In this document: positions 4,757-30,968 of the stretch, piece by piece
Layout: each line of letters begins with the position of its first letter
Numbering within the stretch: the stretch's first letter is position 1
Source: Tychonema sp. LEGE 07203
GTDB taxonomy: Bacteria; Cyanobacteriota; Cyanobacteriia; Cyanobacteriales; Microcoleaceae
DNA: 64,000 nucleotides
Direction of reading: 5' to 3'
NCBI RefSeq assembly: GCF_015207285.1
Contig: NZ_JADEXD010000005.1
Span: 1-64,000 of the forward strand
The notes under the pieces: model-generated
The model's input: only the letters and a program-made list of their open reading frames with translations
The model's database searches: none
What the model was told of the DNA's origin: nothing
Translations under genes and position numbers: made by a program

Positions 4757-7700
4757 ATGTCAACTGCACAACTAACAAAGCCCAATCCAAATAATGTTTA
4801 TGCCAAACAGTTACTCAAAACCTTAGTAGCTGTCAAAAAAGGAGACTTTTCAGCTCGGATGCCCATAAACCAGACCGGTATAGCCGGGAAAATTGCTGAC
4901 GAACTTAACGACATTATCGAACTCAATCAGAGAATGGCAGCCGAACTCGATCGCATCGGCACAGTTGTTGGCAAAGAAGGTCAAATCTCCGAGCGGGCCA
5001 CCATCGGCAGCGCTGAGGGTTCCTGGGCAGCTAGCGTAAATTCTGTCAACACCCTAATTACAGATTTAGTACAACCAACCTCAGAAACCGCCAGAGTAAT
5101 TCGGGCCGTAGCAAAAGGAGATTTATCGCAAACCATCCTCTTAGAAATAGAAGACAGACCACTCAAAGGAGAATTCCTCCAAACAGCCCAAATTGTCAAC
5201 ACAATGGTAGACCAGTTGAGTTCCTTTGCCTCGGAAGTAACCAGGGTTGCTAGGGAAGTAGGAAACGAAGGCAAACTAGGCGTGCAAGCAGAAGTGCAGG
5301 GGGTAGCAGGAACCTGGAAGGATTTAACAGATTCAGTTAACTCGATGGCCTGCAATTTGACAGCACAAGTCCGCAACATTGCCGAAGTGACAACTGCTGT
5401 TGCTAACGGTGACTTATCTAAGAAAATTACAGTACAGGTTAAAGGCGAAATTTTAGAACTGAAAAACACCATTAATGTGATGGTGGATCAACTTAATTCC
5501 TTCGCATCAGAAGTAACGCGGGTGGCGAAGGAAGTGGGATCGGAAGGAAAATTAGGCGGTCAAGCAGATGTCCGAGGCGTAGCAGGAACCTGGAAGGATT
5601 TAACTGATAGCGTTAACTTCATGGCCGGCAGTTTGACGGCGCAAGTACGGAATATTGCTGCTGTTACAACTGCTGTGGCAAATGGCGATTTATCTAAAAA
5701 AATCACTGTTGATGTGAGAGGCGAAATTCTCGAATTAAAAAACACTGTCAACACGATGGTAGACCAGTTAAATTCCTTCGCGTCGGAAGTAACTAGGGTT
5801 GCTAGGGAAGTGGGGACAGAAGGCAAATTAGGCGTGCAAGCTGAGGTGAAAGGAGTTGCAGGAACCTGGAAAGATTTAACGGATTCAGTTAACTCGATGG
5901 CGGGTAATTTAACGGCGCAGGTGCGGAATATTGCGGAAGTGACAACCGCTGTGGCAAATGGCGATTTATCCAAAAAGATTACTGTTGATGTGAGAGGCGA
6001 AATTCTCGAACTGAAAAACACCATGAACGTGATGGTGGATCAGTTGAGTTCCTTCTCATCAGAAGTAACCAGAGTTGCCAGGGAAGTGGGAACCGAAGGT
6101 AAATTAGGCGTGCAAGCTTACGTGCGGGGTGTAGGGGGAACTTGGAAAGATTTAACGGATTCTGTTAACTTGATGGCGGGGAATTTGACGGCGCAGGTGC
6201 GGAATATTGCGGAAGTGACGAAGGCGGTAGCAAATGGCGATTTGTCTAAGAAAATTACCGTCGATGTTAAAGGCGAAATTCTAGAGTTGAAAGATACTAT
6301 TAATGTGATGGTGGATCAGCTTAATTCCTTTGCTTCGGAAGTGACGCGGGTGGCGCGGGAGGTGGGAACGGACGGTAAATTGGGCGGTCAAGCTGAGGTG
6401 AAAGGAGTTGCGGGAACTTGGAAAGATTTAACCGAGAATGTAAACTCGATGGCGGAGAATTTGACGGCGCAAGTGCGGGGTATTGCTAAAGTTGTGACGG
6501 CGGTGGCGAATGGCGATTTGAAGCGCAAATTGATGCTGGAAGCTAAGGGTGAAATTGCGACTCTGGCTGATACGATTAACGAGATGATCGATACGCTGGC
6601 GACGTTTTCCGATCAAGTTACTACCGTGGCGCGGGAAGTGGGAATTGAAGGGAAACTGGGGGGTCAAGCGAAGGTTCCTGGGGCGGCAGGAACCTGGCGA
6701 GATTTGACGGATAATGTAAATGAATTGGCGGCGAATTTGACTACTCAGTTGCGGGCGATCGCCGAAGTGGCAATTGCTGTTACTAAAGGCGATTTAACGA
6801 GGTCAATTTCCGTCGCTACTGAAGGAGAAGTTGCCATTGTTAAGGACAACATTAACCAGATGATCGCCAACCTCCGGGAGACAACGCATAAAAATACTGA
6901 GCAAGATTGGCTGAAAACAAATCTGGCTAAGTTCACTCGAATGCTGCAAGGTCAGCGGGATTTAGAAACAGTTTCTAAACTAATTTTATCAGAATTGACA
7001 CCGCTGGTTTCGGCTCAGCACGGCGTATTCTTTATGATGGAATCTATAGAACACGATCCGTTTCTCAAATTGTTGAGTACCTACGCATACCGGGAACGCA
7101 AACATTTAGGCAATAGATTCAGTTTAGGCGAAGGTTTGGTAGGACAGTGTGCCCTGGAAAAAGAACGAATATTGTTGACAGAAGTGCCGGAAAACTACGT
7201 TAAAATTAGCTCTGGACTGGGAGAAGCTACGCCGCTGAATATTGTGGTTTTGCCCGTTTTGTTTGAGGGACAAGTGACGGCGGTAATCGAGTTGGCTTCC
7301 TTCCGCAGGTTCAGCGAAGTTCATTTGACATTTCTCGACCAACTTACAGAAAGTATCGCCATTGTTTTAAACACAATTGCGGCGAGTATGCGGACGGAAG
7401 AGCTGCTGAAACAGTCGCAGTCTCTGGCAGAAGAGTTGCAAACTCAGCAAAAGGAATTAACGGAAACGAACAAGCGTCTAGAACAACAAGCGCAGTCGCT
7501 CCGCGCATCTGAGGAATTGTTGAAAAATCAGCAGGAAGAGTTGCAACAAACGAATGAAGAACTAGAAGAACAAGCTGAATTGCTAGCGCTGCAAAATAAG
7601 GAGGTTGAGCGGAAAAACCGAGATATCGAACAGGCGAGGGCGTTGCTGGAAGAAAGAGCCGAACAGTTGACTCTAACTTCTAAGTATAAGTCGGAGTTTT

Positions 7701-9745
7701 TGGCAAATATGTCTCACGAGTTGCGAACTCCGCTGAATTCGCTGTTGATTCTGGCTCGATTGCTTTCTGACAATCCTGATGGCAATTTGACTGTTAAACA
7801 AGTTGAATACACGCGCACTATTTACTCGGCGGGAACGGATTTGTTAGGGCTGATTAATGATATATTGGATCTCGCTAAGATTGAATCGGGCACGATGTCA
7901 GTGGAAATTGAGCAAGTGTTGTTTGCTGACTTGCGAGATCATTTGGATCGAACTTTCCGCCAAATCGCTCTGGATAAGAAGTTGAGTTATCAAATAGAGC
8001 TTGAGGCTGGGTTGCCTAAAGGTATCTATACTGATGCTAAACGGCTGCAACAAGTTTTGAAAAATCTTCTGTCTAATGCTTTTAAGTTTACAGAACGGGG
8101 TGAGGTGAAATTGTGTGTCGAAGTGGCGCGGGAAGGGTGGAGTTTAGAGATTGAAACTTTAACGAGTTCTGCTACTGTTTTGGCTTTCTCGGTTAGCGAT
8201 ACGGGGATTGGGATTTCTGCTGAAAAACACAGGGTTATTTTTGAGGCTTTTCAACAAGCTGATGGTAGCACTAGCCGGAAATATGGGGGTACTGGTTTGG
8301 GTTTGTCTATTAGTAGAGAAATTGCTAATCTGTTAGGGGGAGAAATTAAGTTGACGAGTCGCGCTGGTGAGGGTAGTAAATTCACGCTTTATCTGCCGCA
8401 AACTTACCAAGAATCGGAAATAATGAATGATGGCGAAGTGGGAATGGGCCGGCAAACGGCGCAATTGCCGCCTGCTACTTCTGTGGCGCTTCCTTCGCCG
8501 AATTTCAACTTGTCGCCCGCGCCTTATCCGTCGCCTTCAATATCTGATGACCGAGAAAATATTCAGAGTGGCGATCGCATCCTTTTAATTATCGAGGATG
8601 ATGTCAATTTCGCTCGGATTCTTTTGGATATGGCACGGGAACAGGGTTTTAAAGCTTTGGTTGCTTTGCGGAGCGATATCGGTTTGGCGATGGCGCGAGA
8701 GTTCAAGCCAACTGCGATTATGCTGGATTTAAATTTGCCTGTGATGGATGGCTGGACTGTGCTCGATCGCCTGAAGCACGACGCGAGTACGCGCCACATT
8801 CCGGTTCATATTGTATCAGTTGAAGAAGGGCGGCAGCGCAGTTTGCAGTTAGGGGCGATCGCCTATTTACAAAAGCCTGTCAGTCATGAGGCATTGAGCA
8901 AAGCTTTGACTGATATTAAGGGTTTTGTGGAGAGGCCGGTGAAAAATTTGCTCGTGGTGGAAGACAACGAAACGCAACGTCTTAGCATTGTGGATTTAAT
9001 CGGCAATCACGATGTTTCAACGACGGCTGTGGGTAGCGGTGCAGAGGCGCTAGAAATTTTGAAGTCGGGGCATTTTGACTGCATCGTGCTCGATTTGGGA
9101 CTGCCAGATATGACTGGTTTTGAACTGATCGAGCAGATCAAGCAAGAGCCTAGTTTAAAAAATTTGCCGATTATTATTTATACGGGCAAAGAGTTGACGA
9201 GAGCCGAGGAAACTCAACTCAAGCGGATGGCGGAAACAATAATTGTTAAAGATGTGCGATCGCCGGAGCGTTTGTTGGATGAAACTGCTTTGTTCTTGCA
9301 CCGAGTCCAAGCAAATTTGCCGGAACCGAAGCGCCAAATGCTAGAGCAATTGTATCAAACTGATTCGACGCTCGCGGGCAAAAAAGTCTTGATTGTTGAC
9401 GACGACGTGCGGAATATCTTCGCCCTCACGAGTATGCTGGAGCGCCATTTAATGCAAATTGTGTTTGCTGAAAACGGCAGAGAGGGCATTGCTCAATTGC
9501 AAAATACGCCTGATATAAATATTGTGTTGATGGACGTGATGATGCCGGAGATGGACGGTTACGAAACAATGCAAGCAATTCGCAATATACCTCAATTCGC
9601 TTCGCTGCCGATGATTGCTCTTACGGCGAAAGCGATGAAGGGCGATCGGGAAAAATGTATTGAAGCTGGAGCGTCTGACTACATTACCAAACCTGTTGAT
9701 ACGGAACAGTTGCTTTCGCTGCTGCGTGTCTGGCTTTATCGATGA
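4757..9745 (+). CDS. Poly-HAMP hybrid histidine kinase with GAF and three receiver domains
   Basis: 1662 residues, with no signal peptide or transmembrane segment, so a soluble sensor. Residues 1 to about 710 hold eight HAMP-type units marked by GDF/GDL motifs; the central ones repeat every 92 residues ([18 protein letters not shown] ... [11 protein letters not shown]). Then GAF about 725-890, coiled coil about 880-975, HisKA with SHELRTP (His987), HATPase_c about 1090-1215 (N-box [16 protein letters not shown]), and three receivers with phospho-acceptor Asp1324, Asp1446 and Asp1593. A 92-residue HAMP array before a hybrid kinase is the plan of fungal group III (Nik1/Os-1) osmosensing kinases. 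It autophosphorylates on His987 and passes phosphate to its receivers. Followed by cheR, cheB and another kinase on the same strand. Confidence 0.92.
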
Positions 9746-27893: not shown

Positions 27894-28070
27894 GAAAGTT
27901 CGTTCTTCTTGATTGCCAAACTTCACCAATAAATATTAAGGGAGCATTCCGATAAGTGTAAAAAGTGTTTTTTTCAGAGTGCGATAGTCTCTCTCCCTTC
28001 GCCCTCTCACAGCGAACACTCCTGTGAAAATTGAAACAGCCATATATTTACTTGTACTAAATTGCCACAA

Positions 28071-29573
28071 ATGACTGTAAATACAATCCCCCAAGAATTA
28101 CTGACAGAGATATCCCAAATGTTGACAGCGACATTATTTAAAATAGGAGATAATCCTGTATCGCTGCGGTCAATTGTAGAACTGATAATATTGTTCGTGG
28201 CTGTCATCGTCATCTCGCAATATTTTACGGACTTTCTTAGGGAAAGTTTGCTCGTCAAACTGGGAATCGACGAGGGAAACCGGGAAGCAATCGCCGTCAT
28301 TTTGCGCTATTTAATAGTAGCTTTGGGAGCGATCTGCGCCATCCAAAGCATCGGATTTGACCTCGCTTCTTTTGCAGTAGTTGCAGGGGGACTGGGAGTC
28401 GGCATTGGCTTCGGAATTCAGGATTTAACCACAAATTTTGTCAGCGGTTTAACCCTGCTTTTAGACAGACCTGTGAAAGTAGGAGACTTTGTGGAATTAG
28501 AAGGATTGATGGGAATAGTCAAAAAAATATCGATTCGCTCGACCATTATCATCACCAATGATGATTCCAGCGTCATCGTTCCTAATAGCAAAATAATTAG
28601 CAAAAAAATTATTAACTGGAGTTACGAAAATGCTCTGCTCTGTCTGCGAGTTCCCATAGAAGTAGCTGAGAACAGTAACCCGTTATTGGTGACAGAAACT
28701 CTATTAAATATTGCTTATGGTGAAGCTGGGGTTTTGTACGAACCGAATCCGAAAGTATTGTTTGTTGAGTTTGGCGAAGATAGTTTTAAATTTGAACTTT
28801 TAGTTTGGACAGACAGGCCGACTGAAAGAGAAGTAATTAAAAGTTCTTTAAATTTTGCAATTGAGTACAATTTCCGGCAGCAGGGAATAGAATTTCCTTT
28901 GAATGACCGAGACTTGTATTTGCGAAATCCCGAAGTTTTGCTGTCAATGTTCGAGCCAAATAAAACAGCAGTTTACACCAATCACCGTTTGCCTAAAAAC
29001 GACCAAAAACCTCCTGTTTTGGTAGCAGAAGAAGTAAAAAAGCAATCGTCGCTTAGCTCTTTGCTGCGAGAGGTGGAATACTTTGAACATCTGACGGATC
29101 TAGAATTGCGGCAATTGATTGAAGTTGGATACCGCCAACGCCTGCAACCGCAAGAATTTTTATTTCACGAAAACGATCCGGGAGATGCTTTTTACCTGAT
29201 TCTTTCCGGTGCGGTGGAAGTTTTTGTAGAAGCTATCGACAAACACCTGAACAACCTCGGTGCAGGTCAGTTTTTTGGGGAACTTTCTTTGATGTTGGGA
29301 ATACCCAGAACTGCTTCGGTGAGAGCTTTGGAAGAAACAATTTTGTTTGCGATCAATAAAGAAGGTTTCCAGAAAGTTTTAAGTGAAAGACCGGATTTAT
29401 ACGAACAGATTATTAAAGAGATAGTCAAACACAAAGAAGAGTTAAGCGAGAGACAGCAACTGTTGCGAGAAATGGAATTGGTAGAGGCAGCAGAAGATGA
29501 TGAAAATCCTGTAGATTGGGTGAGAAAGCGGCTGAAAGATTTATTTGGTGTTGAAGAAACAGAAAATAGCTGA
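28071..29573 (+). CDS. MscS-family channel with cyclic-nucleotide-binding domain
   Basis: 500 residues from the ATG at 28071; a TTG at 28062 is an alternative. Transmembrane helices lie at about 30-55, 78-100 and 105-130; the pore/beta segment has FAVVAGGLGVGIGFGIQDL, FVSGLTLLLDRPVKVGDFVE and VPNSKIISKKIINWSY, all classical MscS. A C-terminal cNMP-binding cassette (about 335-450) has FHENDPGDAFYLILSGAVEV and FFGELSLMLGIPRTASVRA, with the conserved Glu and Arg of the phosphate-binding cassette. It probably couples turgor release to cAMP or cGMP. A coiled tail follows. Confidence 0.92.
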   Translation: MTVNTIPQELLTEISQMLTATLFKIGDNPVSLRSIVELIILFVAVIVISQYFTDFLRESLLVKLGIDEGNREAIAVILRYLIVALGAICAIQSIGFDLASFAVVAGGLGVGIGFGIQDLTTNFVSGLTLLLDRPVKVGDFVELEGLMGIVKKISIRSTIIITNDDSSVIVPNSKIISKKIINWSYENALLCLRVPIEVAENSNPLLVTETLLNIAYGEAGVLYEPNPKVLFVEFGEDSFKFELLVWTDRPTEREVIKSSLNFAIEYNFRQQGIEFPLNDRDLYLRNPEVLLSMFEPNKTAVYTNHRLPKNDQKPPVLVAEEVKKQSSLSSLLREVEYFEHLTDLELRQLIEVGYRQRLQPQEFLFHENDPGDAFYLILSGAVEVFVEAIDKHLNNLGAGQFFGELSLMLGIPRTASVRALEETILFAINKEGFQKVLSERPDLYEQIIKEIVKHKEELSERQQLLREMELVEAAEDDENPVDWVRKRLKDLFGVEETENS

Positions 29574-29579
29574 ATTAAT

Positions 29580-29695
29580 AAGCTGTCGCGCAAATAAACA
29601 TTGCATATTAAGGGCGGGCTCTCGTGCCCAACCCCTACTCCCCACGCATTGTGAAGATTGTTTTTTACATAAAATTTAAATGCCGCAACAGCTTA
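29580..29695. mobile_element. Family A MITE-like repeat, copy 2
   Basis: AAGCTGTCGCGCAAATAAAC to ATTTAAATGCCGCAACAGCTTA. It starts seven bases after the channel stop codon. Interior GGGCGGGCTCTCGTGCCCAA and CCCCACGCATTGTGAAG is shared, in the other orientation, with 53696-53809. Confidence 0.85.
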
Positions 29696-29836
29696 GGATC
29701 GAAAACTCAATAACTTAAACAACTCCTACAGTCCTCTCTCCTGTAAGTTGCAAGAAAGAAGGAGGCTCTTCGGATCCCCAAAAGCATTACCAGGCTCTTC
29801 CTGGTAACGAGCAAATTTAAATGCCACAACAGCTTA
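29693..29836. mobile_element. Family D repeat, copy 2, followed by a second family A end
   Basis: TTAGGATCGAAAACTCAATA to CTGGTAACGAG is the reverse complement of the family D copy at 19345-19463. Immediately after, AAATTTAAATGCCACAACAGCTTA repeats the right end of family A, so the D element appears to have inserted in or next to an A element with its end duplicated. The rest of 29574-29885 contains a single AAACCCGGTTTCTG motif. Confidence 0.75.
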
Positions 29837-29885: not shown

Positions 29886-30863
29886 TTAATTGCTAGCTGC
29901 CAATCCTTGGCGGTAAATTCCCAAATTTTGCAGGTACATTTGTTCGAGTTTGGGCATCGACGATTCTACGGAACCGCCAAAACGCCGAAAAGAAGGCCAG
30001 ATGTAAGCGAGTTTTCTTACTGCTGACTCCAATCTACCAGCTTCTATATCTTCTAAGGCACCTTTTTCTCGGATTAACTCTACAGCTACCAGGTCTTGAT
30101 TTTGGGGGCTGAAATCGGTGATGCTGAATTTTTTGGCGAATCTGTCCCAGGTTGTGCTGAGAAACTGATAGCGTCCTGCAGCGTCGGAACAAAGCTTTTT
30201 GCCGTAGCGGCGGCCGCATTTCATTTCCCTGGGATGGTCGCTGAAACTGACAAATGTGCTGCCCGTGTACTGGGTGCGGTAGCCGTCGGGGCTAGCGGTG
30301 CCTTCGGCGGCGGCGATGGTGTCGAGAAATGCTTTGAGCCGATCGCGCTCAATGTTATGCTCTGCTTTGTCTGGTGAGTCGATAGGTGCAACGAAGGGCC
30401 GGCGTTTCGGAGGCTGCGAGATTTCTGCCGAGACAGTTTGTCCCCACAGTTTCGGAGTCATTCTACCCAAAAAAAACGACACGCAGATGCACAAACTCCA
30501 CGAGACTTTAAAGGGGAGCCGTTTTGACTGCTTGCTGCGCTGTCGCACCGGCCACCCCTGCGGGGGCAAGGTTGCGGGCAAGATTTCCGTTTGCTGGCCG
30601 AAGGCGAACAGCGATTTGAGTGCTAGCAAGGTTTGCTTGTAGAAACGGGGTGCAACTTGGCGGGCCCTCATGGCTGCTGCGAAAGTCTTGACATCTGTCA
30701 GGGTCACTTCTGCTAGCGGTTTTTCTACAAACAGCCGAAAACTGTTGGCCGCTTGCCAGCTAAAGCGCTTGCTGCGGGGGGATTTTTGCTTCACCCACAG
30801 GCGAATTAGCTGGATGTCGTCTATGGGTTGCAGATGGCTGCCCCGATTTTCTGGTGCGTACAA
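29886..30863 (-). CDS. Integrase-SAM-like domain fused through a membrane segment to a GH104 (lambda-R-like) lysozyme
   Basis: 325 residues in three parts. Residues about 14-95 match the N-terminal core-binding (SAM-like) domain of tyrosine recombinases: SWQAANSFRLFVEKPLAEVT and LTDVKTFAAAMRARQVAP, then LLALKSLFAFGQQT. No recombinase catalytic domain follows. Residues about 119-134 (KVSWSLCICVSFFLGR) after a basic stretch form a single membrane anchor. Residues 170-318 resemble phage lambda endolysin R and GH104 transglycosylases: IAAAEGT (Glu187 expected catalytic), FVSFSDHPREM, AGRYQFLSTTWDRF and DFSPQNQDLVAVELI. If inserted as a type II protein, the peptidoglycan-cleaving part would be periplasmic and the SAM-like part cytoplasmic. 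It is not flanked by phage genes. Confidence 0.85.
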   Translation of the reverse strand: MYAPENRGSHLQPIDDIQLIRLWVKQKSPRSKRFSWQAANSFRLFVEKPLAEVTLTDVKTFAAAMRARQVAPRFYKQTLLALKSLFAFGQQTEILPATLPPQGWPVRQRSKQSKRLPFKVSWSLCICVSFFLGRMTPKLWGQTVSAEISQPPKRRPFVAPIDSPDKAEHNIERDRLKAFLDTIAAAEGTASPDGYRTQYTGSTFVSFSDHPREMKCGRRYGKKLCSDAAGRYQFLSTTWDRFAKKFSITDFSPQNQDLVAVELIREKGALEDIEAGRLESAVRKLAYIWPSFRRFGGSVESSMPKLEQMYLQNLGIYRQGLAASN

Positions 30864-30968
30864 GACTACCTCCTGATATCAATCTTTCTAGTTGAAGGTT
30901 CCCAGTTAGAACGGTTGAGAGGGACAGGGATCGAGGGAAACTGGCTTTAACCATATTAAGTGATACTA

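Follow-up and report, generated by a model that had tools for sequence, protein, structure and literature searches.

A recombinase-type head joined to a GH104 muramidase in cyanobacteria: a candidate link between DNA and cell wall

What could the core-binding domain of a tyrosine recombinase be doing at the amino terminus of an enzyme that cuts the cell wall? The question is raised by a gene at 30863..29886 on the minus strand of the window, the 64,000-nucleotide stretch of Tychonema sp. LEGE 07203 DNA that was analysed. Its reading frame of 325 codons opens with TTG, and frame and start are conserved in the genus. An AGGAGG lies 7 nt upstream of the TTG at 30863, in the ribosome-binding region GATATCAGGAGGTAGTC (30864..30880, minus strand), and both the site and the TTG are kept in 22 of 22 aligned Microcoleus-group loci. 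Translation of the amino-terminal domain, hereafter the head, is therefore not in doubt, and a late start codon that drops it was rejected. The predicted 325-residue product consists of a tyrosine-recombinase core-binding (SAM-like) four-helix domain assigned by homology and predicted fold (residues 15-98; 30570..30821), a basic juxtamembrane stretch (residues 99-118; 30510..30569), a hydrophobic segment predicted to be a signal anchor or internal signal sequence (residues 119-133; 30465..30509), a variable linker modelled at low confidence, with pLDDT mostly <50 (residues 134-172; 30348..30464), and a lambda-endolysin-like GH104 muramidase domain (residues 173-318; 29910..30347) whose catalytic Glu187 is encoded at 30303-30305, all on the minus strand. 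An earlier note made from the letters alone had proposed this order of parts, a recombinase head without its catalytic half, a hydrophobic segment and a GH104 domain with its Glu, and the architecture is fully supported. The protein can be classed as a GH104 muramidase whose N-terminal module is of a new kind. Its own genome has a single fusion of this kind and two further GH104 genes devoid of the head.

The recombinase character of the head is faint in the window protein, which alone gives no recombinase-like match reaching the cut-off in Pfam and only an XerD-like match at E 0.17 (residues 49-117) in NCBIfam. Among 29 fusion relatives, 20 match PF13495 (best 3.7e-7) and 14 match PF02899. 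Head-only tblastn/phmmer searches of 293 genomes of the order recover, besides fusions, many full tyrosine recombinases of ~270-355 aa. Complete Xer-like recombinases of other cyanobacteria are ~42% identical to the head (E about 1e-16), those of genomes G244 and G264 scoring 41-43% identity and E 2e-16 to 3e-15 in tblastn, and four relatives tested are PF00589 recombinases nearest to the XerA/XerC/XerD models. Homology with these simple cyanobacterial Xer-like enzymes extends over ~85-100 residues, with the same predicted four-helix core-binding fold and a common core motif (W, KPL, D, SL). The fusion differs from them in lacking PF00589, in four signature residues, described below, that are mostly lost and in the membrane segment and muramidase joined to it. 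The PF00589 catalytic domain, which bears the R-H-R-Y residues, gives no match in the window protein, whose C-terminal part is GH104, so that it is not a whole recombinase. Xer is reported to be absent from Oscillatoriophycideae, which possess a 'Cyan' subgroup of recombinases of their own (PMC8138268); we infer that this subgroup is probably the parent group of the head.

A structure model built from 22 sequences, all of the Microcoleus group, predicts head helices at residues 16-26, 29-46, 55-67 and 72-91, with pLDDT block means of 76-89, mostly 84-89, over residues 11-100. The head model aligns to E. coli XerD with a Z of 11.7 (1.5 A, 82 residues) and also to XerA, lambda Int, XerH and Cre; helical bundles in general may reach a Z in this range, but the head's matches are nearly all recombinases and sequence homology agrees. 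Foldseek with the head-only model gives probability 1.00, with weak E-values, to Tn1549 Int, XerA and others, and the best match of a head profile in the PDB is XerA (E 0.013). Such fold library searches may miss relatives, and the absence of other folds is not counted as evidence. Homology and predicted SAM-like fold together place the head in the tyrosine recombinase core-binding domain (PF13495/PF02899), in agreement with the earlier reading. Chance resemblance was rejected on the family matches in relatives, the homology to whole recombinases and the fold match.

The assignment of the C-terminal domain is more direct. Residues 174-296 match lambda lysozyme (1am7) at E 1.3e-21, the domain hits the PHROG 90 endolysin at 2.3e-33, and its model aligns to lambda lysozyme with a Z of 15.0 over 138 residues and 31% identity in the structural alignment. 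Glu187 aligns with the lambda EGT motif and is invariant in 29/29 relatives, while an AAG-Y-FL motif, Cys216 and Cys225 are invariant in the 29 fusion members. By sequence and predicted fold this is a GH104 domain, equipped for catalysis, and the endolysin-like enzyme with retained Glu187 that the earlier note had described stands. Fusion and lambda endolysin R or other GH104 muramidases (PHROG 90; 1am7) share the catalytic fold and Glu; in contrast to endolysin R, the fusion is host chromosomal and has its own hydrophobic segment for export, an extra conserved Cys pair, a recombinase-derived head and no lysis cassette. The Cys216/Cys225 pair occurs also in secreted cyanobacterial GH104s and is absent from several phage endolysins compared, which favours an oxidising, extracytoplasmic place; the phage tail protein L152 has the pair. 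In headless cyanobacterial GH104s (e.g. L090/L129, L132, L133, L135) a related domain stands, by eye, behind a signal peptide or signal anchor, with a short tail or signal peptide where the fusion has the recombinase head. GH104 has unusual partners in L128, L130 and L138, read by eye as a membrane segment, GH104 and an apparent M23-type peptidase, and in one case an apparent trypsin-like domain.

A hydrophobic segment separates head and GH104 in 45 of 45 fusion proteins (44 relatives and the window's own) by hydropathy and alignment. In L051 a simple hydropathy scan scores a stretch of the head slightly above it, and the alignment shows the segment in place. The residues preceding the segment carry a charge of +1 to +10 in nearly all 45 sequences. 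In other families, outside Microcoleus, the segment has about 19-21 residues and is strongly hydrophobic; in Microcoleus the hydrophobic core has ~14-16 residues, followed by R134, which is invariant in that group. Signal-peptidase-like motifs come after the segment in several members, none of them conserved throughout. Owing to this short core in Microcoleus and these partly conserved motifs, we speak of a signal anchor or internal signal sequence. The single segment and its basic cytoplasmic flank define a predicted bitopic (type II) protein, for which N-in/C-out insertion is strongly indicated. A cytoplasmic head and a periplasmic enzyme make the most likely topology, on the strength of the basic flank and the Cys216/Cys225 pair. 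As to the single transmembrane helix of the earlier note, the segment is conserved in all sequences, whereas its short form in Microcoleus could be a cleaved signal.

The entire fusion was read in 45 sequences, which represent three families belonging to a single cyanobacterial order. It occurs in 26 of 29 Microcoleus-group genomes searched, in other genera of the same family and in two further families. A fusion profile run on a 390-genome sample of the class, with a limited number of scored candidates per genome, gives, among the matches listed, full-length proteins from no family but the window's own, and outside it matches to one half, either GH104 or recombinase; the two other carrier families come from the 293-genome order sample. 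The fusion is likely restricted to its order. The identical single-ORF layout recurs in dozens of independent assemblies, on which ground misassembly was rejected, and the concern that the fusion might be peculiar to one genome does not apply. An origin in a phage or plasmid was also discarded, as no head-bearing match occurs in the phage records, the plasmid records or the best 80 viral contigs searched. Holin, spanin or prophage genes of a phage lysis cassette do not surround the gene in the window, where the neighbours encode a glycosyltransferase, an MscS-like channel and a YihY-like protein. A tree of the heads puts the fusions on one side of a branch with support 93/85, not starred; the GH104 tree does the same with a weak 55/26, in a run made without an outside sequence and in which an incorrect motif was used to trim the beginning of the non-fusion row N_L127a. 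With better support from the heads than from GH104, the sequences are consistent with a single origin. In one locus, L024 (G025:C44), the head is apparently split between two frames by a frameshift or a sequencing error. Directly downstream of the fusion gene, L007 and L009 have a short second copy of GH104 residues 277-301, 72-75% identical, with an in-frame stop in one of the two; it is probably the remnant of a tandem duplication.

Gene order around the fusion is preserved within the genus but not from family to family, and across families no conserved neighbours were seen beyond generic ABC ATPases. No conserved binding palindrome was found upstream of the gene in the 22 aligned Microcoleus-group loci, and a promoter/terminator scan at the gene gave nothing informative. 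Within the Microcoleus group dN/dS is 0.29 for the head, 0.15 for GH104 and 0.37-0.42 for the juxtamembrane, membrane and linker parts (pooled Nei-Gojobori values, descriptive since the pairs are non-independent), which points to purifying selection on the fusion, the head included. HetR, a rough marker of filamentous cyanobacteria, is present in 37 of 37 fusion carriers and 129 of 256 non-carriers of the order sample, an association in which the carriers come from three families only. Because all 37 carriers have HetR, a part in the life of the filament, at septa, in fragmentation or in separation cells, is suggested as a lead; PMC9415839 reviews necridia and the release of hormogonia.

Whether the head still contacts DNA is the point on which its role turns. 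The core residues D16, W23, F42, K48, P49, S84 and L85 are invariant in fusions and D57 is nearly so. Positions shared by related recombinases fare differently: T31 is present in 22/24 of these and 0/15 fusion representatives, Y35 in 24/24 and 2/15, and S/T74 and N98 each in 24/24 and 5/15. T31 and S/T74 open helices B and D, which are DNA-facing in this fold, and specific binding may therefore be gone. In XerH, a fold relative, most of the base-specific contacts come from the N-terminal domain, which enters the major groove (PMC5241119), and Tn1549 Int shows a similar insertion (PMC5871717). The head has at the same time gained positive charge, mostly in helices B and C, with a mean net value of +7.6 in fusions and +3.3 in 23 relative recombinases (Mann-Whitney p 7e-6, kinship ignored). 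Basic residues at positions 32-33, the start of helix B, are kept in most fusions; one lineage (L084, L109, L124) lacks this cluster and L109 has a net charge of about -1. A core-binding domain parted from its catalytic partner may bind DNA weakly, and the basic charge could equally serve an anionic membrane surface. We infer from the sequences that the head was freed from recombination-site recognition, with a general affinity for polyanions, DNA or membrane, kept or made stronger.

The mechanism that we find best, though we put it forward with some reserve, is that an exapted recombinase domain keeps a bitopic muramidase close to the nucleoid. The fusion would be a wall enzyme that filamentous cyanobacteria encode once, on the chromosome. 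Its muramidase would cross the inner membrane behind a single hydrophobic segment, and its core-binding domain, derived from an Xer-like tyrosine recombinase of cyanobacteria, would remain cytoplasmic. The basic head would contact DNA, probably without its old recombination-site specificity, and keep the enzyme where nucleoid and membrane meet, so that wall cutting would come under spatial control, possibly at septa, in trichome fragmentation or in dying separation cells. This reading draws on the homology of the head to PF00589-bearing recombinases and its predicted DNA-binding fold, on its raised charge, basic residues 32-33, invariant core and dN/dS, on the basic flank of the membrane segment and on the invariant Glu187 and Cys pair; HetR in all 37 carriers fits filamentous organisms. 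It has against it the loss of most signature residues, the lineage devoid of basic residues 32-33 with the negative head of L109, and a neighbourhood and regulatory context that favour no DNA process. The fuller proposal, in which a domesticated DNA-binding domain of a recombinase tethers a wall enzyme of filamentous cyanobacteria through the membrane to the chromosome, so that peptidoglycan is cleaved as the position or segregation of the nucleoid permits, is more tentative still. The earlier note had suggested a coupling of DNA events to wall opening, and its interpretation is partly borne out: the parts and most likely topology are in place, and the coupling may exist, though recombinase signature residues are lost, the neighbourhood has no conserved pointer to competence or division and a signal-peptide-like cleavage is possible.

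The same loss of T31, Y35, S/T74 and N98 from a retained fold core would be expected if the head did not bind DNA at all and served as a docking or self-association module, which by binding to itself, to a partner in the cytoplasm or to the anionic inner leaflet would target or gate the membrane-anchored muramidase. Residues strongly conserved inside Microcoleus and not elsewhere, such as F74, Y75 and T78, agree with such a module, and a membrane-proximal domain also needs basic charge. We consider it possible but rather unlikely, in that a surface for binding nucleic acid would be expected to show just such a gain in charge and a basic pair, mostly conserved, where helix B begins, and no conserved partner adjoins the gene. 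Improbable in our view, yet suggested by the 14-16-residue core in Microcoleus, is that the internal signal sequence is cut by signal peptidase, freeing the muramidase into the periplasm and leaving the head as a leader that delays or regulates export. Many Microcoleus members have signal-peptidase-like motifs (VSA-E in the window, FANA-Q in L118, NSQA-E in the L097 group) and some headless cyanobacterial GH104s have, by eye, ordinary signal peptides; however, a proline stands at -1 in L034 and L044, several families have no clear site, and a mere leader is not expected to hold a dN/dS of 0.29 and a recognisable fold across families.

Membrane transcription factors of the ToxR/CadC type are one-component regulators with the head inside, one membrane pass and a domain outside. 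The fusion has the same order of parts, an N-terminal domain of DNA-binding fold predicted cytoplasmic, a single pass and an extracytoplasmic domain, with a recombinase-type head and a catalytically equipped muramidase where those regulators have a winged-helix head and a non-enzymatic sensor. A regulator in which the muramidase-like domain senses the wall and the head regulates genes can thus be imagined, and a recombinase-fold protein can repress, as proposed for SPbeta YopR (PMC8612738). We hold this, too, to be hardly probable: the invariance of the catalytic Glu and of many GH104 residues goes beyond the needs of a pure sensor, and neither a conserved target gene nor a palindrome was seen beside the fusion gene. 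The core-binding domain of YopR is proposed to serve DNA binding without recombination (PMC8612738), as the fusion head might; YopR is soluble, acts as a phage repressor and is recombinase-like in its C-terminal part, and it has neither membrane segment nor wall enzyme. Tyrosine recombinases being common and mobile, the head could finally be an in-frame fragment carried along without function, for which the split head of G025 might speak, or an assembly artefact. The full fusion in three families, trees consistent with one old origin and purifying selection on the head make such an accident very improbable, and its artefact version is already refuted by recurrence in independent assemblies.

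A description of this fusion was not found in the literature searched, which covered few subscription journals; the joining of recombinase head and wall enzyme is real and conserved and apparently undescribed, and the statement of the earlier note that no system like it was described can be kept. If the nucleoid-tethered muramidase that we prefer is correct, it would be a one-protein link from DNA to wall not described before. The placement of wall hydrolases relative to the chromosome is an open question in bacteria, and the control of septum opening and trichome breakage in filamentous cyanobacteria is poorly known. With the head inside and the muramidase outside, the fusion would also show plainly that a recombinase domain can be put to use without recombination.

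Several other features accompany the gene. Just downstream of it, at 29672-29693 and 29813-29834 on the minus strand, are two copies of an intergenic repeat, AGCTGTTGYGGCATTTAAATTT, of which the genome has 27 copies at <=1 mismatch and a reversed control none. An MscS-like mechanosensitive-channel-like protein with an apparent C-terminal cyclic-nucleotide-binding domain is encoded at 28062-29573 on the plus strand, convergent with the fusion gene. Farther away, 4757-9745 (plus strand) codes for a 1662-aa hybrid histidine kinase with, by eye, many HAMP-like repeats followed by a GAF-like region and several receiver domains. Elsewhere in the same genome, locus L095 (G000:C207, 6580-8760) encodes a large protein that combines repeat modules and a peptidase-like stretch with a GH104 domain sharing 54% identity with that of the fusion; one TGA is counted once the profile match is extended.
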